A DNA stretch of 37,450 nt from a virus: positions 1-37,450 of the IMG/VR virus record IMGVR_UViG_3300046657_000035, one strand, 5' to 3'. A program made the position numbers and the translations under genes. This document shows, in pieces, positions 4,467 to 33,752 of this stretch. Under the pieces are notes generated by a model. It made no database searches and was not told the origin of the DNA. It saw only the letters and a list, made by a program, of their open reading frames with translations. Numbering within the stretch: the first letter of the stretch is position 1; every line of letters begins with the position of its first letter.

Positions 4467-5636
4467 CTAGCCGAGCAGCAGGGCGACGTTCTCCTGCTTC
4501 ACGACCGCCTGGCCCCACGCGAGGCCGACCTCGTACTTGACCTGCCTGTACTGGAGGTAGAGGCTGATCTCGAACGTAATCCCCGAGTACGGGTCGGTGA
4601 GGAGGTAGCGGTCCTCCGCCATGTCCATCGGGTTTCCGGAGGCGTCGAGCGGGACGGCCGGGGCGCGGGTCGCGAGGACCATCGCCGACTTCGAGAGCGC
4701 GATGTTGGGGGTGAAGTTGTTCCCCACCGTGAGCGCCGTGGCCACCGCCGGGAGCGCGATGCGCAGGCCGGGAGCGCCGATGACGATCGTGCCCGGCGCC
4801 GCGATGCCGGTGACGACGACGTACTTGTTCGTGTCGCCCGCGAACGTCACGACGTCTCCGGCGAGGATCGTGCCGGAGCCCGTGATGAGCGGGATCGAGG
4901 TCGTCCCGACCGGGAAGCCGGCCGCGGTCGAGGTGTACGCCGTGCCGGTGCCCTTGACGACCGCCTTGACGCCCGACGAGTTATGAATGTCGAAGCTCTC
5001 CAGGCGACCCACGACGCCGTCGCGGAGGAGACCGTCGGTCCCGGCCTCGTTCACCTTGAAGAGGACGGACTGCTTGCCGCGGAGGTTCGCCATCGCCGCC
5101 GACCCGAGGATGAGCTGACGGTCCGAGAGCGGGGCTCCGTTGTCGTCGAGGATCTGAAGCGCCCCGGCGACGTCCGAGAGGTCGCCGGCCGTCCCGAAGG
5201 GAGCGGCGCCGGCCGAGCCGAAGGCCCGCGACGCGGCGACGCGCGCCGTGTTCACGACGTCGGTCTCGACCTCGTTCACGAGCGTGCGGAACGCCTGGGT
5301 GAACTGGTTCGTGAGGATCGCCCTCGCGCCCGGTCCGTTGTTGTTCAGGCCCTTCTGCTCCTCGCCGTTCCAGCGGATCGGAACGTAGCGGGACTTCGTG
5401 ATGGTGATCGGGATGTTCGTGATCACCTGGTCGCCGTCGTTCGGCGCGGTCACGCCCGGCGTGATGTCGGACGCCGTGACCGCGGGCGCGACGAACGAGC
5501 TGACGGTCTGCCCCTTCGCGGCGCGGGCGACCTGGCTGTCTCGGGTCACCGCCGGGATCGCGCCGATGAGCTCGCGCGCGATGACGTCGAGCGACTCGTA
5601 GAGGGTCGGGATGAGACCCGTGAGGGTGTTGGCCAT
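4467..5636 (-). CDS. Major capsid protein, P22 coat protein family
   Basis: The 389-residue product starts MANTLTGLIPTLYESLDVI at ATG 5636 with an AAGGAGG ribosome site. Recognisable P22-coat-like blocks are the N-terminal LIPAVTRDSQVARAAKGQ, the ITKSRYVPIRWNGEEQKG block, the NEVETDVVNTARVAASRAFG helix, the ILDDNGAPLSDRQLILGSA block and LFKVNEAGTDGLLRDGVVG. The length is close to the family's usual 390-430 residues. It forms the icosahedral shell (HK97 fold with an insertion domain in P22). Gene order terminase - portal - scaffold - coat supports the call strongly. Confidence 0.9.
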   Translation of the reverse strand: MANTLTGLIPTLYESLDVIARELIGAIPAVTRDSQVARAAKGQTVSSFVAPAVTASDITPGVTAPNDGDQVITNIPITITKSRYVPIRWNGEEQKGLNNNGPGARAILTNQFTQAFRTLVNEVETDVVNTARVAASRAFGSAGAAPFGTAGDLSDVAGALQILDDNGAPLSDRQLILGSAAMANLRGKQSVLFKVNEAGTDGLLRDGVVGRLESFDIHNSSGVKAVVKGTGTAYTSTAAGFPVGTTSIPLITGSGTILAGDVVTFAGDTNKYVVVTGIAAPGTIVIGAPGLRIALPAVATALTVGNNFTPNIALSKSAMVLATRAPAVPLDASGNPMDMAEDRYLLTDPYSGITFEISLYLQYRQVKYEVGLAWGQAVVKQENVALLLG

Positions 5637-8468: not shown

Positions 8469-10166
8469 CTACGACGCTACCTGATACGTCCCGACGGCGG
8501 CTCGCGCGGGCTCGTGGGCCGGGACCGGCCAGTACGCCATCACGACGGCGTCGGCGAGGTTCGGAGACTTCGTCCCCTCCGGCTGCTTGTTCACCACTAG
8601 CTTCAACCTCTTGCTAGGTCCCGCGGTCGCCTGAGAAAGCTCCTTGCGGAGCTTCGCGAGGAGCGGGAGGTCGCTCGGGAGCGATATGAGATCGCCGCGG
8701 CGGAACGTGTATCCCGATTCGGTCCGCGCCCGGTAGGTCACCTCGAACCGGCGGCGGAGCTGCCACCACGCCTGGGCCTTGAGGTTCTCGTAGAAGTCCT
8801 CGTTTATCGGCGAGTTCTTGTCGCCCGGGACGACCCTCCCGCGCGGGTCGAGGACGCTCGCTCCCGCGCTCCAGGCGACGAGGGAGACGTTCCTCGGCAT
8901 CTGCTTCTCGGCCTTCAGGCGGTTCGCCTCGGCCTTGACTCCCGCCCCGACCCCGACCGAGTCGTACTGAAGCTCGATCGGCGCGAACCTCTTCACTCCG
9001 TCGACGGCCGTCCTGGTAGTGAACCCGGTGTCGCGGTCGCCCCACTCCTCGACGCTCTTGAGGACGAGGCCCTTCCGTACCGCGAGCGCGTTCGTGTCGC
9101 CGCCCTCGTCCGCGACGTCGAGGCCGGCCCCGTACATCCCGTCGTCCTTGAAGCCGAGCGCGAGGTGCGCGTCGATCGCGGCGGCGACCCACTCGCCCGG
9201 GATGATGACGCCGACGATCGCGGCCGAGTAGTTGCGGTCCACCTCTTGGGCGAAGATGTGAAGGAGCCCGTCGTCCTTCGACTTCTTCTTGCGCGCGTCG
9301 TACCACGCCTGACTCTTCGCCGGGTGCTCGCGCCAGTCCATCACGAAGACCGAGGTCCGAGCCTTCTCCATCGCGCGGCCGGGGACGTACTCGGCGCCGT
9401 TCTCGCGCCGCGTGTGAAAGACGTTCCCGAGCCCGTTGACCGACGACATATCGATCTGAACGCGCGTGTTGTCAGTGAGGGCCGCCTCGATCTTCTCGGG
9501 CCGCTCGTAGTGGGCCGACTCATCCTTGAAGTAGACGAGCTTCCTCCCGCCGCGGCCGATGTTGTCCCCGCTCTCGCCGGTTATCGTCGCCATCGTCTGA
9601 GGGTTCACGAACCTCATGAACGACATGTTCGTGGCCTCGTCGAAGCCGGCCGGGATGAACTCCGGCGGGAGGCCGCGGACGATGAACCTCATCTTCTCGA
9701 AGATCGAGTCGAGGTCGCCGAGCTTGTCGACGAGGTCCTCCTTCCGCGACCCCCAGCCGACCGACGACCCCGGCCAGAACAGGAAGAGCCAGACCGAGAA
9801 GGCGCAGGCCGCGAACGTCGCCCCCATGTCGCGGCACTTCTCGACGAGACCGCACTCCTCGCTCGTGAGGCACGCGTAGAAGAACTCGATCAGCTCGCGC
9901 TGGCGCCGGAAGAGGACGAAGGGGAGCCTCATCGGGAGGTCGCCGCCCGCGTTGCGCGGGTCGTAGGTGTCGCACCAGTCGGAGATGAACTCGACCGGGC
10001 GCGTCCGGTAGTACTCCATCGCGCCGACCGCGAGGCGGCGGTCCTTCCTCATCGCGACGAGGCGACGCTGACGCTCCGCGAAGACCGCGACGTAGTCCGG
10101 GGGCCACGGCTCCTTCGTCCTCGGAACTAGATTCTCGAAGACCTCGCGAGCCGGCCTGACGTTCAT
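8469..10166 (-). CDS. terL: Terminase large subunit (packaging ATPase-nuclease)
   Basis: The 565-residue product has a terminase-type ATPase domain: a degenerate Walker A at about 110-117 (K-CRDMGAT) and Walker B with catalytic Glu at about 211-216 (VYFKDE). The RNase-H-like nuclease domain shows D350 (GAGLDVADEGG), D402 (LQYDSVG) and a late Asp in NLADAVVMAYW. These give ATP-driven DNA translocation and headful or site cutting. The start at 10166 overlaps the upstream gene by 4 bases (ATGA). It follows the putative small terminase and one small membrane protein, which is an unusual insertion between the two terminase genes. Confidence 0.92.
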   Translation of the reverse strand: MNVRPAREVFENLVPRTKEPWPPDYVAVFAERQRRLVAMRKDRRLAVGAMEYYRTRPVEFISDWCDTYDPRNAGGDLPMRLPFVLFRRQRELIEFFYACLTSEECGLVEKCRDMGATFAACAFSVWLFLFWPGSSVGWGSRKEDLVDKLGDLDSIFEKMRFIVRGLPPEFIPAGFDEATNMSFMRFVNPQTMATITGESGDNIGRGGRKLVYFKDESAHYERPEKIEAALTDNTRVQIDMSSVNGLGNVFHTRRENGAEYVPGRAMEKARTSVFVMDWREHPAKSQAWYDARKKKSKDDGLLHIFAQEVDRNYSAAIVGVIIPGEWVAAAIDAHLALGFKDDGMYGAGLDVADEGGDTNALAVRKGLVLKSVEEWGDRDTGFTTRTAVDGVKRFAPIELQYDSVGVGAGVKAEANRLKAEKQMPRNVSLVAWSAGASVLDPRGRVVPGDKNSPINEDFYENLKAQAWWQLRRRFEVTYRARTESGYTFRRGDLISLPSDLPLLAKLRKELSQATAGPSKRLKLVVNKQPEGTKSPNLADAVVMAYWPVPAHEPARAAVGTYQVAS

Positions 10167-10444
10167 CGGCTACTCGACCAGGTGCAGACGGTCTGGGCGG
10201 AGTCGACGCACCGTCGCGTCACGCCGGGCGACGGCGAGGACGTTCGAACTCCTCCGACGAGCATCGTCCTCGGCGAGGGGGCGGCTAGGAGGTTGACAGC
10301 GAGCGCGAGCGACGCGACGGCGAGGACGGCGAGGAGCGGAGCGGCGATACCGAGCGCCCTCCGTCGCGACGCGGAGCGACGGCTCTCGTCGGCGAGGATC
10401 GCCTCGATCGTCTTGGCGGAGGAAGGGTGGACAACGAGCTTCAC
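10163..10444 (-). CDS. Single-pass membrane protein between terminase genes (93 aa)
   Basis: A GTG start at 10444 overlaps the upstream stop (GTGA), and its own stop overlaps the large terminase start (ATGA), so it is locked into the operon. Residues 1-30 are a polar helical segment (SSAKTIEAILADESRRSASR). Residues 31-54 form one membrane helix (LGIAAPLLAVLAVASLALAV), followed by a Ser/Pro/Arg-rich tail with two cysteines. No family was recognised. A membrane protein between small and large terminase is atypical. Confidence 0.65.
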   Translation of the reverse strand: MKLVVHPSSAKTIEAILADESRRSASRRRALGIAAPLLAVLAVASLALAVNLLAAPSPRTMLVGGVRTSSPSPGVTRRCVDSAQTVCTWSSSR

Positions 10445-10929
10445 CGGATCATCTCCTGGTAAGCCTCGGCCGCCTGCTGAGGAGTCATCGGGCCGAGGAT
10501 CGCGCGGACCTCGCCCTCGATCTTCCCCTTCAGCTGGATCGCCTGGAGGCGAGGGTGGCAGTAGGGCGCGGCGTCTACCGCGCAGGCCTGGGCGCGGTCG
10601 CGCGCCGCGAGGAAGTTCGCGAGGACCTTCACCGCCTCGGCGCGGGCCTCGGGGTCGAGCGCGGTCTCCGGGTCATCCTCCGCGCCGAGGATGATCTCGT
10701 TCAGCCTCTCGCCGAGCGACGTCGCGGCCTTCCACCAGAAGAGCATGTTCTCGTGCATCAGGTGAAGCGGGCTCTCGCCCGAGTCGCATATCTCCTGCGC
10801 CGTCTTACGCGTGAGGAGCGTCGTCGATCCCTCCTTGCGGCCGGAGTTCGGGCGCGGCCCGCCGTTCTTCGCGCGCTTGTCGCGGACGACCAGCTCCTTG
10901 CTAGCAGGCTTTCGCTTCGGCGCGGCCAT
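10441..10929 (-). CDS. terS: Putative terminase small subunit
   Basis: The start chosen is ATG 10929 (MAAPKRKPASKELVV), 10 bases after an AGGAG site; a frame from 11049 would run through the AT-rich leader and is rejected. The 162-residue product has a basic N-terminus with GGPRPNSGRKEGSTT, SPLHLMHENMLFWWK, and a C-terminal DRAQACAVDAAPYCHPRLQ block. That combination is common in phage DNA-packaging small subunits that bind the packaging site. It is the first gene after the AT-rich block and lies one gene from the large terminase, which supports the call. Confidence 0.7.
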   Translation of the reverse strand: MAAPKRKPASKELVVRDKRAKNGGPRPNSGRKEGSTTLLTRKTAQEICDSGESPLHLMHENMLFWWKAATSLGERLNEIILGAEDDPETALDPEARAEAVKVLANFLAARDRAQACAVDAAPYCHPRLQAIQLKGKIEGEVRAILGPMTPQQAAEAYQEMIR

Positions 10930-11035
10930 TGTTGAAAATCTCCTATTTCCACCGACGACTACCGCGAACCGGGGCTCCGGGGGAAGGGTCCGAAAAATGG
11001 AAACTGCTAAGTTATTGATATCGCTACATATCGCA

Positions 11036-11158
11036 TTTCCATTTTCCATTTTTGACCTGGAACGGAGAACTCTACCCCCTTTCGCTATTTTTACTTTCTT
11101 ACTTACTATAACTTCTTACTAGAAGTATCCGTTAGGACCCAAAAATGGAAAATGGAAA
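11036..11158. repeat. 19-bp perfect inverted repeat in AT-rich block
   Basis: Bases 11036-11054 (TTTCCATTTTCCATTTTTG) are the exact complement of 11140-11158, with an 85-base centre. Each arm contains a tandem TTTCCAT unit. A related single copy is at 10993-11003. The arrangement suggests paired protein-binding sites that could loop DNA. Confidence 0.75.
11111..11126. promoter_or_regulatory. Operator-like palindrome
   Basis: ACTTCT-tact-AGAAGT is a perfect 6-bp inverted repeat with a 4-base spacer, adjacent to a TATAGT hexamer on the minus strand. A repressor or activator site overlapping a promoter is possible; no -35 match is convincing. Confidence 0.3.
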
Positions 11159-11211
11159 AAAATAAGCTAATAGAATCAATACCTCGTTTTTTGGTCCCGA
11201 CCAGAGAATGG

Positions 11212-11511
11212 TTAACGGTTGAGACGTTTTAACGTTTTTCGCTCCTCCTCGCGCTCTAGTCTTCTTCCTCCGCTCCAGCCCCCTCGCCGCGAGGAGTGAA
11301 ACACCGTGAACCCCGCCGCGAGGGCCGCGACGATCCACTCCCGCGCCGCGCTCCGCTCCGCCCGGACGTCGAACGTTACGCCGTAGGCCCCGCGCCCGCT
11401 CCAGTGGTGCCCGAACGCCGGCTCGCCGAGCGCGAGGACGCTGTAGTTCATCCTCCGCCGCGTCGCGTCGTCGAGCATCCCGTCCGCGATCTCCTCCGCC
11501 TCGCACGTCAT
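11212..11511 (-). CDS. Hypothetical protein (99 aa)
   Basis: ATG 11511 follows the primase-helicase stop by 13 bases with a GGGGAGAG ribosome site. The product begins MTCEAEEIADGMLDDATRRR, has a central aromatic and Gly-rich portion (GEPAFGHHWSGRGAYGVTF) and a basic C-terminus (RREREEE-like, KTLKRLNR). Its last codons run into the AT-rich block. No family was recognised. It closes the replication part of the left arm. Confidence 0.55.
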   Translation of the reverse strand: MTCEAEEIADGMLDDATRRRMNYSVLALGEPAFGHHWSGRGAYGVTFDVRAERSAAREWIVAALAAGFTVFHSSRRGGWSGGRRLEREEERKTLKRLNR

Positions 11512-11524
11512 CCGATCTCTCCCC

Positions 11525-13849
11525 TCACATCTTGAACCACGACGCCGCGAGGTCGCGGACGTCGAGCGGCTTGACCCTCTCCATCAGCTCCTTCATCGCG
11601 ATCCGCGTCATCGCCGCGTTCGAGCAGAGGACCTTACCGTGGGCCCCGTGGGCGTGGTTCTCCTCGGGGTGGACGTGCCACCCCTTCGCCTTCGCGACCT
11701 TCCTCACCGTCAGCGGCTTCTCCAGGCGGTCGCTCGCCCGGCCCTCGTGTATCTGGTTCTTTATCAGCTCGACGAGGGCCTTGTCGTAGACGACCGCGCC
11801 GGGGCTCTTCCAGACCCCGTTCGCGCCCGACGGCCGCGCGTTCCGCGCGAGCCAGTCGCGCGTCTCCGGGCGGTCCTGCCTCATCGCGTCCTCTACCTGG
11901 TCCAGGAACTCGGAGACGAGCGTCATCCCCGGCGAGTAACCCTCCTTGACGACCGCCTCCTTCTGCCTCGACCACGGCGCGGCCTCCGACCGCTCGACGG
12001 CCGCGTTCTCGGCGAGCCACTCGCGGCAGTACCTCAGCACGATCCCGAGCCCGCCCTCCTCCAGCCACCTGTTCAGCTCGTTCCAGTACTCCTTCGTCCG
12101 CTTCTCCTCCGTCACCTCGGGGACGAACCAGCGCCGGTCGTCGGCCGAGAGCTGGATCGCCCTCATCGAGTTCGAGCACGCGAAGCAGTGGAGCCAGTTC
12201 TCGACGTCGTAGTTCGCCATGTACTTCTTCGAGACCGTCACCATCTTGTCGGTCACGATCGTCTTCAGGTTGTTGTAGGCCTTCGAGGAGTGGCCGGCGT
12301 ATATCTCGTGAATCACCGCGAGCCGCTTGTGCGCGAGCCAGTAGTTGAAGCTGCTGTCGACGATCTCCTTCTCCGAGGGGTAAGAAACATTACTGGCTCC
12401 CACTAGGGGAGCCAGTATCTTTTCTCCGAGCGTCCCCTTCCCGACGCCCTGCACCTCCGAGATCATCAGCACGCCGTACGACATCTTCACCTCTGGCCGC
12501 GCGACGAGCGTCGCGACCCACCGCGTGAGCTCCGTCCGGTCTCCCTCGTCGGGGACGAGGCCCCTCATGAAGTCGAGGAACGGCTCGGCCGACCCCTCCT
12601 CCTCGCGGATGTCCGGCGGCCAGTACGTGTTGATGAACCTCCCGCCGTCCCCGGCCGAGTATATTCCCGGCCTCCGGCTCGGGTCGTACTTCAGGTCTGC
12701 CGACTTCGACGCGGCGTCGGCCTTTAGGAGCCGCGCGGTGTCGTCCGTGTCGGAGAACGGCCGGACGTGAGAGTTGAACTCCTGAGCCGTGTGCATGAGG
12801 TTCGGCCAGTCCCTGTGAACGAAGACCTCGGGCTTGACGGAGTGGTACCACTCCTCGCGGAACGCGCGCCGGAGGACGGCGAACGGCCTCCCCTTCCCGC
12901 CGTCGGAGACAAGCTCCGTCGCGTGGGTCGCGGAGACGACGAGCCGCGCGAGCCTCGGACCGAGGAACCGCCTCCCCTTATAGAGCGTCTTCGGCATCTC
13001 GTCGGCGAGGTCCCACTGGGGCGGCCACCGCTTGTCGAACCGTATCCCCTTCAGCGAGCCGCCGTAGGCGCGCGAGACCTCCTGGAGAGCCGACTGTCCC
13101 TCCCAGTCGTTGTCGCAGACGTAGACGGTCTCCGACGGCTTCGCCGCGCGAAGCTCGTCGTAGTCGGCCCTGTGCGGAGCCAGGGCCCCGCCGATCATCC
13201 CCCAGTGGCAGTAGCCGGCCAGCTCCTCGCCCCACGGGTGAGCCTCAAGCTCCTCGCGCCTCGCCGGGTCGTTGACGAGCCCGTCGACGAACTTCGCGCC
13301 CTTCGCGCCCTCGTGGACCATGATCCTCGGCGTCTGCCGCTCCGGCTTCCAGAACGGGAGCGCCCCGTCGGGCTCCAGGCGACGCCACTCGCCGTCGGAG
13401 AAGAACGTCCACGGCACGTAGGCCTTCCCCCCTTCCCGCGTCCCGATCCGCTCCTGACACATCACCACCGACTTCCTCCGGAGGTCCCAGAAGACGTGAA
13501 GCTCCCCCGAGCAGCGCGCCCGGAGCGCCTTGACCTGGGCCTCTGTCGCCCCGACCGCGACCGGCCAGTCCGACGCCGCGATCTCCAGCGCGATCGCGTC
13601 GGCCTCGGCCTTCGTCGGCTCCAGGTCCTTCTTCGAGACCCGGATCGACCCGTCGGCGCCGAGGCGAACGAGCCCCCTCTCGATGTAGTACGACCCGCGC
13701 TGCTCCTTCACGATGTAGCGCCGGAAGTTCAGCTTCTCCGCGCCGATCCTCTCGGCGTACGCGTCGAGGGCCGGCGTCGCCGACCCGCGCTCGACTTCGG
13801 CGCGCGCGCTCTTCTTCCCCCTCGCCGGGGTCGTCTTCTTCTTCGCCAA
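11525..13849 (-). CDS. Primase-helicase with TOPRIM-like region and SF3-type ATPase (DUF5906-like)
   Basis: The 774-residue protein likely starts at TTG 13849, six bases after AGGAGG. The N-terminal half has TOPRIM-like features: E180 in RIMVHEG and D246/D248 in VCDNDWEGQSAL. The C-terminal half is a superfamily 3 helicase-like ATPase with Walker A at about 465-474 (EVQGVGKGT), Walker B at about 511-516 (VIHEIY) and a sensor-like FACSNS followed by DDRRWFVPEV. This layout matches phage proteins with DUF5906 that unwind and prime DNA during replication. A hairpin with atypical codons lies just after the Walker A helix. It heads the replication role of this arm, while the polymerase lies in the other arm. 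Confidence 0.85.
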   Translation of the reverse strand: MAKKKTTPARGKKSARAEVERGSATPALDAYAERIGAEKLNFRRYIVKEQRGSYYIERGLVRLGADGSIRVSKKDLEPTKAEADAIALEIAASDWPVAVGATEAQVKALRARCSGELHVFWDLRRKSVVMCQERIGTREGGKAYVPWTFFSDGEWRRLEPDGALPFWKPERQTPRIMVHEGAKGAKFVDGLVNDPARREELEAHPWGEELAGYCHWGMIGGALAPHRADYDELRAAKPSETVYVCDNDWEGQSALQEVSRAYGGSLKGIRFDKRWPPQWDLADEMPKTLYKGRRFLGPRLARLVVSATHATELVSDGGKGRPFAVLRRAFREEWYHSVKPEVFVHRDWPNLMHTAQEFNSHVRPFSDTDDTARLLKADAASKSADLKYDPSRRPGIYSAGDGGRFINTYWPPDIREEEGSAEPFLDFMRGLVPDEGDRTELTRWVATLVARPEVKMSYGVLMISEVQGVGKGTLGEKILAPLVGASNVSYPSEKEIVDSSFNYWLAHKRLAVIHEIYAGHSSKAYNNLKTIVTDKMVTVSKKYMANYDVENWLHCFACSNSMRAIQLSADDRRWFVPEVTEEKRTKEYWNELNRWLEEGGLGIVLRYCREWLAENAAVERSEAAPWSRQKEAVVKEGYSPGMTLVSEFLDQVEDAMRQDRPETRDWLARNARPSGANGVWKSPGAVVYDKALVELIKNQIHEGRASDRLEKPLTVRKVAKAKGWHVHPEENHAHGAHGKVLCSNAAMTRIAMKELMERVKPLDVRDLAASWFKM
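12391..12417. repeat. Intragenic hairpin in the helicase gene
   Basis: Arms 12391-12401 and 12407-12417 are an 11-bp perfect inverted repeat with a 5-base loop. The surrounding coding strand uses codons rare elsewhere here (GCT, CCC, CTA, GTG, AGT, AAT, GTT, TCT) for residues just after Walker A. Confidence 0.75.
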
Positions 13850-14058: not shown

Positions 14059-14292
14059 CTATCGCCCGATCAGCTCTGGTCGTCGGTGTGTGAGCGGGAG
14101 AGGCCCCCGCACGGTCCCGTCCGCCGCGATCGTCGTCGCGTCGTCGAGCGGCCCGAGGCGCGCGAACGGCCGCCCCTGGTACGTGAGGACGAACGTCTCG
14201 CCGCGCTCGCGTATCGCGTACGAGATCGCTCCGACTCTCCTCCTCAGCTCGACCATCGTCACCGTCTTCTCCTTCACGCTCTCCTCCTTCAC
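14059..14292 (-). CDS. Phd/YefM antitoxin-like DNA-binding protein
   Basis: The start is GTG 14292 or GTG 14277; each sits after an identical AGGAGGAGAGC-like site created by a 15-base tandem duplication. The product has TVTMVELRRRVGAISYAIRE, then RGETFVLTYQGRPFARLGPL, which is the Phd/YefM fold pattern (helix, then a beta hairpin with 'vlTyxGxPxAxLxP'). Such proteins repress their own operon and neutralise toxins. No toxin gene is adjacent, so it may be a stand-alone repressor or a host-toxin antidote. The C-terminus is short. Confidence 0.55.
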   Translation of the reverse strand: MKEESVKEKTVTMVELRRRVGAISYAIRERGETFVLTYQGRPFARLGPLDDATTIAADGTVRGPLPLTHRRPELIGR

Positions 14293-14303: not shown

Positions 14304-14555
14304 CTAGATTCCCAGTGGCCTCTGAGTCGCCTCGCTTATCCCATCGTCATTCGGAGGGTCGCGCGGCGCGCGCCGGAGCGGGAACGACGCCGGGTCCCTC
14401 GCCCGCTCCTCCTGGATCACCTTCCGGACCGCTCCCGCCGTGAACCTCGACCCGTCGACCCTCCCGATCGTCGCGACGATCCGCGGAACGGAGTAGCCGC
14501 GCTCCCACATCCACCTCACGCGCTCGACCGGGATCGTCCGCCGCGCGCCGCTCAC
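14304..14555 (-). CDS. Putative helix-turn-helix protein (83 aa)
   Basis: GTG 14555 overlaps the upstream stop (GTGA); a longer open frame upstream is a shadow of the SLOG gene. The core ERVRWMWERGYSVPRIVATIG followed by FTAGAVRKVIQEER looks like a helix-turn-helix of the resolvase/MerR-like 'GYSxPxIAxxLG' type. The C-terminal 30 residues are Pro/Arg/Asp-rich. It is likely a DNA-binding regulator; the target is unknown. Confidence 0.6.
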   Translation of the reverse strand: MSGARRTIPVERVRWMWERGYSVPRIVATIGRVDGSRFTAGAVRKVIQEERARDPASFPLRRAPRDPPNDDGISEATQRPLGI

Positions 14556-15028
14556 GTCGTCCTCCACTCGTCCCACAGGTTGTCGATCGCGACGCCGGGC
14601 CGGTGCCTCCGCGCGTAGCTGACGCAGTTCGCCGTTCCCCCGGCCGAGCCGTCCCAGAGCGCCGCGAGCCGGTCGCAGTGGTCCACCATCCACTCGTTCC
14701 GCGCCTGAAACTTCCAGTCCGCGTGGCCGCCGCCGGTCACGACGACGACCCGCGCGGCGCTCGCGAGGACGCGCTCGTACCTCCGCTGGCCCTCGACCGG
14801 CCACCGGCTCTCCTGGCCCTCGAAGGCCACCGCCGCGACGAGGGGGACCGAGAGCGAGAGCGCCGCGAGCGCGAGCGCGGTGTCCCACCCGATCGCCATC
14901 CCGGAGACGACCTCGGAGGGCCTCTCCCCCTTGAGGTACTTCTCCGCGAGCCCGACGAGCCGCGCGAGGACGTCCTCGCCGTACCCTCCGAGCTTCATCG
15001 GCCTGTGGCCGGTCCCGGCGACGATCAT
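14552..15028 (-). CDS. SLOG-family protein (YspA / DUF1273-like)
   Basis: ATG 15028 overlaps the upstream stop (ATGA). The 158-residue product has the Rossmann-like SLOG signature: an N-terminal IVAGTGHRPMKLGGY, then VVSGMAIGWDTALALAA, VPLVAAVAFEGQESRWP, a VVVVTGGG strand, WKFQARNEWMVDHCDRLAAL, and WDGSAGGTANCVSYA. SLOG proteins bind nucleotide ligands or free nucleic acid bases, and some act as sensors in conflict systems. In phages this family is frequent but functionally unassigned. It could scavenge or sense a nucleotide signal; that is inference. Confidence 0.8.
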   Translation of the reverse strand: MIVAGTGHRPMKLGGYGEDVLARLVGLAEKYLKGERPSEVVSGMAIGWDTALALAALSLSVPLVAAVAFEGQESRWPVEGQRRYERVLASAARVVVVTGGGHADWKFQARNEWMVDHCDRLAALWDGSAGGTANCVSYARRHRPGVAIDNLWDEWRTT

Positions 15029-15216
15029 TCCTTCTTCTCCCTCAGCGCCGACTTCCCGACGCGCTCCCCCAGGAACGGGAACGCCGTCCCAAGCTCGACG
15101 AGAAGCTCCGACGATCTCCGCGCCCCGGCGTCGAGGCGAGCCCTCGCGCACATCGTCTTGAGGACGCAGATGCCGAGGTAGGCCGACCACACGACGTCCT
15201 CTTCTTCCTTCGTCAT
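15025..15216 (-). CDS. Hypothetical small helical protein (63 aa)
   Basis: ATG 15216 overlaps the upstream stop (TGATG) and its stop overlaps the SLOG start (ATGA). The product (MTKEEEDVVWSAYLGICVLK, TMCARARLDAGARRSSELL) is helical with two cysteines and a basic C-terminus. No family was recognised. Confidence 0.6.
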   Translation of the reverse strand: MTKEEEDVVWSAYLGICVLKTMCARARLDAGARRSSELLVELGTAFPFLGERVGKSALREKKE

Positions 15217-16242: not shown

Positions 16243-16466
16243 GCCTTCATCTTCCTCTCGCACCGCGTGCACTTGTCGACGACGAACATGTCGAGGTCCC
16301 AGCCGTGGCTCGGCCGAAGGCCGCACGCCGCCGCGGAGAACCTGATCTCGTGGAACGAGTCCGAGTCGGTCTCGACGGCGTGGAGCTTCCAGCCGCGCCG
16401 GCCGGCGTCCGGTCCGGTCGCCGGGTTCCGCGGGTTCGGGGCCGTCGTGAGCCACTGAACCTTCAT
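16239..16466 (-). CDS. Hypothetical zinc-ribbon-like protein (75 aa)
   Basis: ATG 16466 overlaps the upstream stop (ATGA), preferred over the GTG three codons earlier. The product has WLTTAPNPRNPATGPDAGRR, GWKLHAVETDSDSFHEIRFS, AAACGLRPSHGWDLDMF and a terminal KCTRCERK. One CxxC pair plus a further Cys/His could bind a metal ion. The recurring phage pattern 'CGLRPxHGWxxDxFxxxKCxRC' is familiar but unassigned. Confidence 0.6.
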   Translation of the reverse strand: MKVQWLTTAPNPRNPATGPDAGRRGWKLHAVETDSDSFHEIRFSAAACGLRPSHGWDLDMFVVDKCTRCERKMKA

Positions 16467-17254
16467 ACCCCGCACATCCCCTCGCAGTCGTTGATGAACT
16501 CGTTCTTCTCGTCGCGACCGGTCCCGAAGTCGACCTCGCCGAGCGGGACGAGGGACGGGTGGACGTACCCGGCCTTCCCGTACAGCTCGACCATCGCGCG
16601 CGACCGGACCCCGGCGTCGAACGCGACGGCGTAGGCGAACTCAGCCGGCTCGTCCCTCTTCATCGTCGCCCACTGAAGGTCGCTCTTGTACGGGCAGTAG
16701 ACGCAGCTCGACTTCGGCGGCCGGGGGTAGCCCTCCGCCGCGAGCCACTCCAGGCAGCCGTCGCGCGTCTTCCCGAGTTCGAGGAGCGGGTGGCGGTTCG
16801 CGAGGAAGCGGATGCCGGACGGCCGCGCGCGGATGATCTCGTCGACGGATATTCCGATCCACATCGAGATCGCCCCCGGCGCGACGTACGAGCGGGAGCC
16901 GACGCCGAGAATCTCCCGCGCCTTCCTCCGGATCGGCCGGAGCTTGAAGTTGCGCGTGCACTGGCGCCCGAGCATCCCGCGTCCCTTCTTCGTCTTGATG
17001 AACAAGGGAGGCCGCGCGTCCTTGTAGCCGGCGAAGACGGCCTCGGAGAGCCGCCCGCGCTCGGAGGTGACGTAGACCGGGAACGGGAGGACGCCGGACA
17101 TCAGCCACCTGAGGTGCTCGTAGACGGCGGCCGGCTCGTCCCGCGTGTCGGCGAAGATCGCCGCGTCCGGCATCGGCGTGATCATCCCGCGAGCGGCCAT
17201 CAGCGCCATCGCGGTGCTCTGAACTCCGGCCCCGAGCGAGATGACGTTCAGTAT
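16463..17254 (-). CDS. PP-loop ATP pyrophosphatase, PAPS-reductase-like family
   Basis: The conserved region starts at about 17250 with LNVISLGAGVQSTAMALMAA, which contains the PP-loop (SLGAGVQS). No ATG, GTG or TTG lies in frame close to it. The codon that fits best is ATA at 17254, eight bases after AGGGAGG and overlapping the upstream stop (TGATA); CTG codons on each side are alternatives. A GTG at 17320 would overlap the neighbour by 67 bases. The 263-residue product has cysteines in GRQCTRN, KSSCVYCPYK and a terminal CEGMCGV. The family adenylates or activates substrates such as sulfate, thiolated bases or deazaguanine precursors. The phage substrate is unknown. Confidence 0.75.
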   Translation of the reverse strand: MLNVISLGAGVQSTAMALMAARGMITPMPDAAIFADTRDEPAAVYEHLRWLMSGVLPFPVYVTSERGRLSEAVFAGYKDARPPLFIKTKKGRGMLGRQCTRNFKLRPIRRKAREILGVGSRSYVAPGAISMWIGISVDEIIRARPSGIRFLANRHPLLELGKTRDGCLEWLAAEGYPRPPKSSCVYCPYKSDLQWATMKRDEPAEFAYAVAFDAGVRSRAMVELYGKAGYVHPSLVPLGEVDFGTGRDEKNEFINDCEGMCGV

Positions 17255-17451
17255 CAGATCAGCCTCCCTAGTAAGATTCCGATCCCGACGCCGACTCCGA
17301 CGCCGATGACGAGTGACCACGGGTGGCGCCTCGCCGTCGCCGCGAACCTCGCGACCGGGCCGGGCTCGGCCGGCTCCGGCAGGGGGTAGGTGCGCGGCTC
17401 GACGCCGACCGCGATGCCGACGAGGTCCGACGCTGCACTCTTGATTTTCAC
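17254..17451 (-). CDS. Small membrane protein with glycine-rich helix (65 aa)
   Basis: GTG 17451 follows GGAGGAGGTCACC. It is the first gene of the left arm. The N-terminal 40 residues are polar and Pro-rich. The C-terminal helix alternates Val/Ile with Gly (VIGVGVGVGIGILLGRLI), a glycine-zipper pattern typical of membrane-embedded oligomers; DUF883-like small proteins look similar. Its stop is shared with the start of the PP-loop gene. Confidence 0.6.
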   Translation of the reverse strand: MKIKSAASDLVGIAVGVEPRTYPLPEPAEPGPVARFAATARRHPWSLVIGVGVGVGIGILLGRLI

Positions 17452-33258: not shown

Positions 33259-33752
33259 AGACGAAGCGCCCGTGGGGAGTTCACGTCATCGGCGACCTCG
33301 TCGCCCCGCCCGGAGTTCAGGCCGGCCTCCCCGGCGGGCGATGGGTCCGAGCGGTCCCGGAGCCGTACTCCGGGAACCGGATCGTCGCCGCCTGGTGGGT
33401 CCTCACCGGCCGCGCCCACGCCGTCGTCTGGCCGGAGCCCGGAGACCTGGAGCGGGCGATCCACCCCGACCGCATCCAGAGCCCGCGCGCGCCGACGAGC
33501 GGCGTTCCGCCGCGGGACGTCCAAGACTTCGTCGAGAAGAGCGAGAGCGTTGGCTACCGCCTAGCGCGCCACCTCTACGCGCGCGAGCACGGGAAAGACG
33601 AGGGCGCTCCGAAGTTCGACGACGTCGGGTCAGTCGTGGCCCACGACTACTTCCGCCGGGCGCGCGAGATCATCGACCTCGGTCGGAGGATCGACCCGCT
33701 CATGGAGCACGATCCCCACGCCACGTTCCTCTACGAGGGAGTCGAGATATGA
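33255..33752 (+). CDS. Hypothetical protein (165 aa)
   Basis: ATG 33255 overlaps the upstream stop (ATGA). The product has a beta-rich first half (RPWGVHVIGDLVAPPGVQAG, GNRIVAAWWVLTGRAHAVVW) and a helical second half (VGYRLARHLYAREHGKDEGA, HDYFRRAREIIDLGRRIDPL). No family was recognised. Confidence 0.65.
   Translation: MKTKRPWGVHVIGDLVAPPGVQAGLPGGRWVRAVPEPYSGNRIVAAWWVLTGRAHAVVWPEPGDLERAIHPDRIQSPRAPTSGVPPRDVQDFVEKSESVGYRLARHLYAREHGKDEGAPKFDDVGSVVAHDYFRRAREIIDLGRRIDPLMEHDPHATFLYEGVEI

Follow-up and report, generated by a model that had tools for sequence, protein, structure and literature searches.

An AT-rich inverted-repeat block upstream of the terminase genes of a virus contig as a candidate late-operon control region

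At the late promoter A3 of phage phi29, proteins p4 and p6 form a nucleoprotein hairpin, in which about 120 bp of DNA is folded by phage protein on inverted A-tract sites (PMC3100819). The cosB site of lambda-like phages, with the order R3-IHF-R2-R1, has R2 opposite in orientation to R3 and R1 (PMC4669245), and the omega/ParB operators of pSM19035 consist of tandem non-palindromic 7-bp units, which overlap promoters and are bound by an RHH protein (PMC9499535). We describe here an AT-rich block in a virus contig of 37,450 bp (IMG/VR record IMGVR_UViG_3300046657_000035; the whole of this stretch is called the window) that resembles each of these systems in part. Like the phi29 A3 switch, the block lies at an early-to-late boundary and has several inverted A-tract-bearing sites, and the p4 site CTTTTT-15 bp-AAAATG resembles its A-rich boxes. 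The p4 sites, however, each take one dimer and consist of inverted repeats separated by 15 bp, whereas each arm in the window is made of direct 7-bp units in tandem, with 85 bp between the arms, and the likeness is a proposed one for a window in which a scan restricted to sigma70-like promoters, at positions 10000–12000, gave 0 sites. As in lambda-like cosB (PMC4669245), three copies of one box stand upstream of terS with the middle one opposite, but the layout seen here accompanies unrelated terminases, the IHF match falls in another interval, and cosN is only a candidate. The omega operators are likewise made of tandem 7-bp units, of which each window arm has two, but omega sites comprise 7–10 contiguous units as against 2–3 in each arm of the lineages compared below, and a search for an RHH_1 (PF01402) regulator in seven records, including the window record, which is a fragment, was empty. 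Finally, the blocks of phages Pam3, RHph_TM26 and RHph_I72 are similar to that of the window in that the gap preceding terS is AT-rich and carries inverted, iterated words, with a homologous TerL downstream, but they use a TTAAG-type word at 9–10-bp spacing, and each genome carries a further block ahead of its early operon, whereas one block is seen in the window fragment.

The GC content of the block is 41%, compared with 68% for the record, of which it is the sole AT island, and the block coincides exactly with the intergenic gap from terS to a 99-aa ORF (Table 1). The sequence-only reading had described a sharply AT-rich block in a GC-rich genome, located between replication and packaging genes, and this was borne out with correct coordinates, the 99-aa ORF lying downstream of the DUF5906 primase-helicase gene. 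The genes for TerL, portal and major head protein are downstream of the block, all on the minus strand, and terS starts with the ATG at 10929, with AGGAG at 10940–10944. The record has no end repeats and is probably a fragment of a phage genome. Searches of Rfam and for tRNA gave no match. A NusG-like gene was not detected in the window by a search that also missed the NusG-like gene of one related contig (G014).

Table 1. Coordinates of the block and of neighbouring features in the window.
Feature	Position	Strand	Basis or remark
terL, terminase large subunit, 565 aa	8469..10166	-	57.7% identity to Pseudanabaena phage Pam3 TerL
terS, terminase small subunit, 162 aa	10441..10929	-	named from position before terL and relatives' position; weak PHROG hit
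AT-rich intergenic block upstream of terS, candidate control region	10930..11211	- (read in minus direction)	41% GC
Third copy, AAAAATGGAAA	10993..11003	+	word search
TATCAATAACTTA, perfect match to IHF consensus WATCAANNNNTTR	11008..11020	-	only perfect one in record
Inner arm, exact inverted copy (TTTCCATTTTCCATTTTTG on +)	11036..11054	-	repeat search
Spacer between arms, AT-rich, 85 bp	11055..11139	.	40% GC
Outer arm, CAAAAATGGAAAATGGAAA, two tandem ATGGAAA units	11140..11158	+	repeat search
Possible fourth, degenerate box, GGACCAAAAAACGA	11184..11197	-	2 mismatches to GGWCCNAAAAATGG
99-aa ORF, function unassigned, just upstream of block	11212..11511	-	
DUF5906 primase-helicase, 774 aa	11525..13849	-	last clear replication gene before block

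The two arms form the perfect 19-bp inverted repeat that had been noticed from the letters alone, at the positions given there; the tandem TTTCCAT units ascribed to them are present, two per arm and reading ATGGAAA on the plus strand in the outer arm, and the third copy reported at 10993 was also located. With mismatches allowed, the repeat extends to 39 nt at 77%, and it ranks first among the spaced inverted repeats of the whole record. In 300 dinucleotide-preserving shuffles of the block, the longest inverted repeat was 13 bp, and most were 7–9 bp. When the repeat was sought elsewhere in the genome, a check that had been proposed, AAAAATGGAAA was absent from the rest of the record, and with up to 1 mismatch allowed it occurred 5 times in 37,450 bp, all inside the block, against an expectation of 0.02. 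The inverted repeat and the iterated words are thus far from chance. The third copy was also found to be in register (GGTCCG-AAAAATGGAAACTG, 10987–11006), with an identity of 85% to 11135–11154. The possible fourth box, weak in that 22% of shuffles match at up to 3 mismatches, would render the array roughly symmetric about 11097. A search of viral contigs with the exact pattern AAAATGGAAAATGGAAA gave more than 100 matches, which were taken as chance in AT-rich contigs.

For comparison with relatives, the primase was used as a query, which yielded contigs of 7–72 kb having gp33-like, gp34-like, PNKP and other genes in common with the window, and six of them (G012, G013, G014, G016, G018 and G021) were read. 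A terL of the window type was found in none of the primase-lineage contigs, and homologues of the window terS were present only in G013 (47%) and G014 (39%). As in the window, an AT-rich region with inverted arms was located directly upstream of the first late gene in all six lineages. The common layout consists of arms of 2–3 tandem units of ~7 bp, inverted around an AT-rich spacer of 72–138 bp, and it abuts either a NusG-like gene or terS, while the terminases are mostly unrelated across the lineages. The arms were TTTGACAATTGTCAAATTT and AAAATTGTCAATTGTCAAA with a spacer of 138 bp in G012, CGGCCCAAAACCCATTTT and its exact complement with a spacer of 77 bp in G021, and ACTTCCATAAACATCTC and its complement with a spacer of 94 bp in G016, and they were imperfect in G013, G014 and G018 (spacers of 78, 72 and 112 bp, respectively). 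No other spaced inverted repeat scores higher than the arms within the records of the window, G012, G016 and G021. Going from the spacer outward, most arms show an A-run and then 2–3 WTGGNNN units or a variant thereof. The self-similarity of the arms peaks at lag 7 (z = 5.9 across 7 lineages), although the true z is lower because the two arms of one genome are not independent, and the test is biased because the arms of G013, G014 and G018 were delimited by eye. The box words differ between lineages while the layout stays; the G013 arm includes the window's own word, AAAAATGGAAAA. The first late gene was identified as NusG-like by Pfam PF02357 in G012, G013, G014 (L180), G016 (L185) and G021 (L182), and by eye in G018. 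The distance from the primase gene is 2.6 kb in G013 and 12 kb in G018, in which the primase is at 46.9–49.3 kb and the block at ~34.6–35.0 kb beside the NusG-like gene, terS and terL.

Relatives of the window TerL were compared as well. RHph_TM26, RHph_I72 and Pam3 each have exactly two such iteron blocks, one before terS and a near copy, more than 20 kb away, before the SNF2 helicase gene, which opens the other (early) operon. The paired blocks of RHph_TM26 (L174; 15858–16335 and 42295–42622), which are similar to each other and ~330 bp in size, have equivalents in RHph_I72 and Pam3, with a core conserved between the Rhizobium and cyanobacterial phages. Between the block and terS, eight terL relatives have TTGCC and, after it, GGGC and a TATA-like hexamer, with 17–18-bp spacing in the five that were measured, and a sigma70-like promoter follows the terS block in most of the eight. 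A contig of Bradyrhizobium sp. JYMT SZCCT0180 (L191; terL identity of 63%) is organised in the same way as the window, with a primase gene, arms built from TTGGTTAGG units and separated by 92 bp, a third copy, terS and terL, and no NusG gene between the block and terS. No comparable block was found upstream of terS in at least 10 other terL relatives (for example, L004, L007, L008, L031 and L033).

The block therefore has non-random repeats and a position at the start of an operon, and its layout recurs with other words in related phages. We consider the chances slightly better than even that it is the promoter/operator of the late (terS-terL-portal-capsid) operon with looped sites. This reading is favoured because the block keeps to the start of the late operon while the distance to the primase, the type of terminase and the word change; a cos or pac site should follow the terminase and a primase-bound origin should follow the primase, so that both are less expected. 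It is also favoured by the iteron blocks of RHph_TM26, RHph_I72 and Pam3, which mark both operon starts. That the block binds a protein, forms a loop and acts as a promoter with late timing is what we infer: a protein would bind cooperatively to the tandem boxes in both arms, and as the arms are bridged, the AT-rich DNA between and beside them would fold into a loop or hairpin, which would set the place and time at which RNA polymerase starts late transcription towards terS on the minus strand. The timing and direction are putative for the window, as no promoter was recognised there. Of the three functions suggested in the sequence-only reading, namely a late promoter with loop-forming operators, an origin and a pac/cos site, it is thus the first that the comparative evidence favours, although the scan for sigma70-like sites gave no promoter in the window. 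Conservation of the arms in relatives, the absence of which had been named as a refutation, holds for the layout, whereas the words diverge and several terL relatives are without a block. The blocks of the different lineages, whose words differ, could be homologous or convergent. The block may act as the key switch of the left arm, as had been suggested.

The strongest rival, which we nevertheless regard as unlikely, is that the block is a lambda-like cosB with three TerS boxes, in which the outer arm would be R3, the inner arm R2 and the copy at 10993 R1, and cosN would be placed near 11190–11206 (TTTGGTCCCGACCAGAG, a partial dyad ~48 bp from the outer-arm centre). Two points make it the strongest: the three copies are oriented to one another as R3, R2 and R1 are, and the affiliation of TerL fits, the Pam3 TerL, with which that of the window shares 57.7% identity, having been assigned by the Pam3 authors to the lambda-like 5' cos group (PMC9382816). 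Moreover, the block adjoins terS and holds the IHF-consensus site. This site, however, lies between the equivalents of R2 and R1, and not between R3 and R2 as in lambda, and none was detected in the vicinity of the relatives' blocks. The recurrence of the layout ahead of unrelated terminases and, in RHph_TM26, RHph_I72 and Pam3, the second block copy far from terS also argue against cosB. Furthermore, the boxes do not follow TerS: tracking of TerS by the arms, which seemed true for G013 and G014, failed with G021 and G018, in which WTGG/YGG-type boxes accompany a terS without detectable similarity. An apparent packaging end is, in addition, located elsewhere in two lineages. In the 61,214-bp contig of G012, an HNH gene and terS/terL lie at opposite ends, the G021 contig stops 84 bp past HNH, and another contig (L183) reads through the HNH|terS gap. 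Judging from the contig ends of G012 and G021, those in the gap are probably natural packaging (cos) ends, more than 1 kb (~1–1.5 kb) from the block. A CGCGGGGT word is shared near these ends (G012, 1–838 and 59225–61214; G021, 33651–33735).

A replication origin, at which an initiator such as the DUF5906 primase-helicase would bind the boxes and melt the AT-rich spacer, is somewhat less probable still. Inverted iterons do flank an AT-rich spacer, as expected of a flanked unwinding segment, and the primase gene is nearby in the window, G012, G014 and L191, but in G018 the block remains with the late operon far from the primase, and the idea of an origin tied to the primase failed with this genome. 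Besides, the word that goes with the closest primase (G012, 58%) is TTGTCAA, unlike that of the window, whereas ATGG-type words are found with primases of lower similarity. The cumulative GC skew has no minimum at the block but, as it also follows gene content, is not informative for an origin. We find it very improbable that the arms encode a long leader-RNA hairpin through which the late operon would undergo processive antitermination of the NusG/RfaH type. The NusG-like gene after the block in six lineages and the retention of complementarity between arms whose sequence changes are in line with such a hairpin, but the window, in which the third copy is unpaired, yielded no NusG-like gene, the Pam3 group has multi-copy iterons in both orientations, and one arm of the L186/L190 block carries a change that the other arm does not compensate. 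It is scarcely credible that the repeat is the remnant of a small inserted (MITE-like) element: terminal-type inverted repeats do enclose a short AT-rich interior, but no target duplication was found at the flanks, a third copy lies outside the repeat, and the layout recurs at the same place in other phages with different words.

Beyond the late-operon control region proposed for the window, the comparable blocks could represent a conserved class of late-operon switch with two outward-pointing clusters of 7–9-bp boxes ~90–160 bp apart, in which the layout is kept while words and terminase modules are exchanged, and the word, as a lineage-specific regulator address, would mark the boundary between replication and late genes. 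We put this forward tentatively, as possible though doubtful; no described element of this kind was found in the open-access literature. Late-gene switching is not understood in most environmental phages, and a layout that is recognisable without a known sequence would help in finding late control regions and could be searched for across many uncultured phages. Words that vary while the geometry is constant would likewise account for the failure of sequence searches to detect such elements. Comparable blocks are present in Pam3 and the RHph Rhizobium phages, which are cultured, and can be tested there.

Several further observations were made in the course of the comparison. NusG/RfaH-like genes stand first in the late operon before terS in several uncultured phages, at 10307–11017 in L180, 10829–11398 in L182, 11769–12509 in L185, 357–935 in L044 and 5444–5944 in L045. 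In L045, an inverted repeat of 30 nt (~5032–5101), which has few mismatches and encloses a loop of 10 bp, lies upstream of a NusG-like gene. The cultured phages MinM1 and ppBjS10J-1 also encode a NusG-like protein, and single looks at them showed iterated or spaced inverted words in the gap preceding its gene. On the minus strand of the window, positions 14059–14292 encode a 77-aa Phd/YefM-like protein, which is below the Pfam cut-off and has no obvious adjacent toxin, 14552–15190 a SLOG/DprA-like domain protein (YpsA family), and 16463–17320 a phage-borne protein of the PAPS reductase family.
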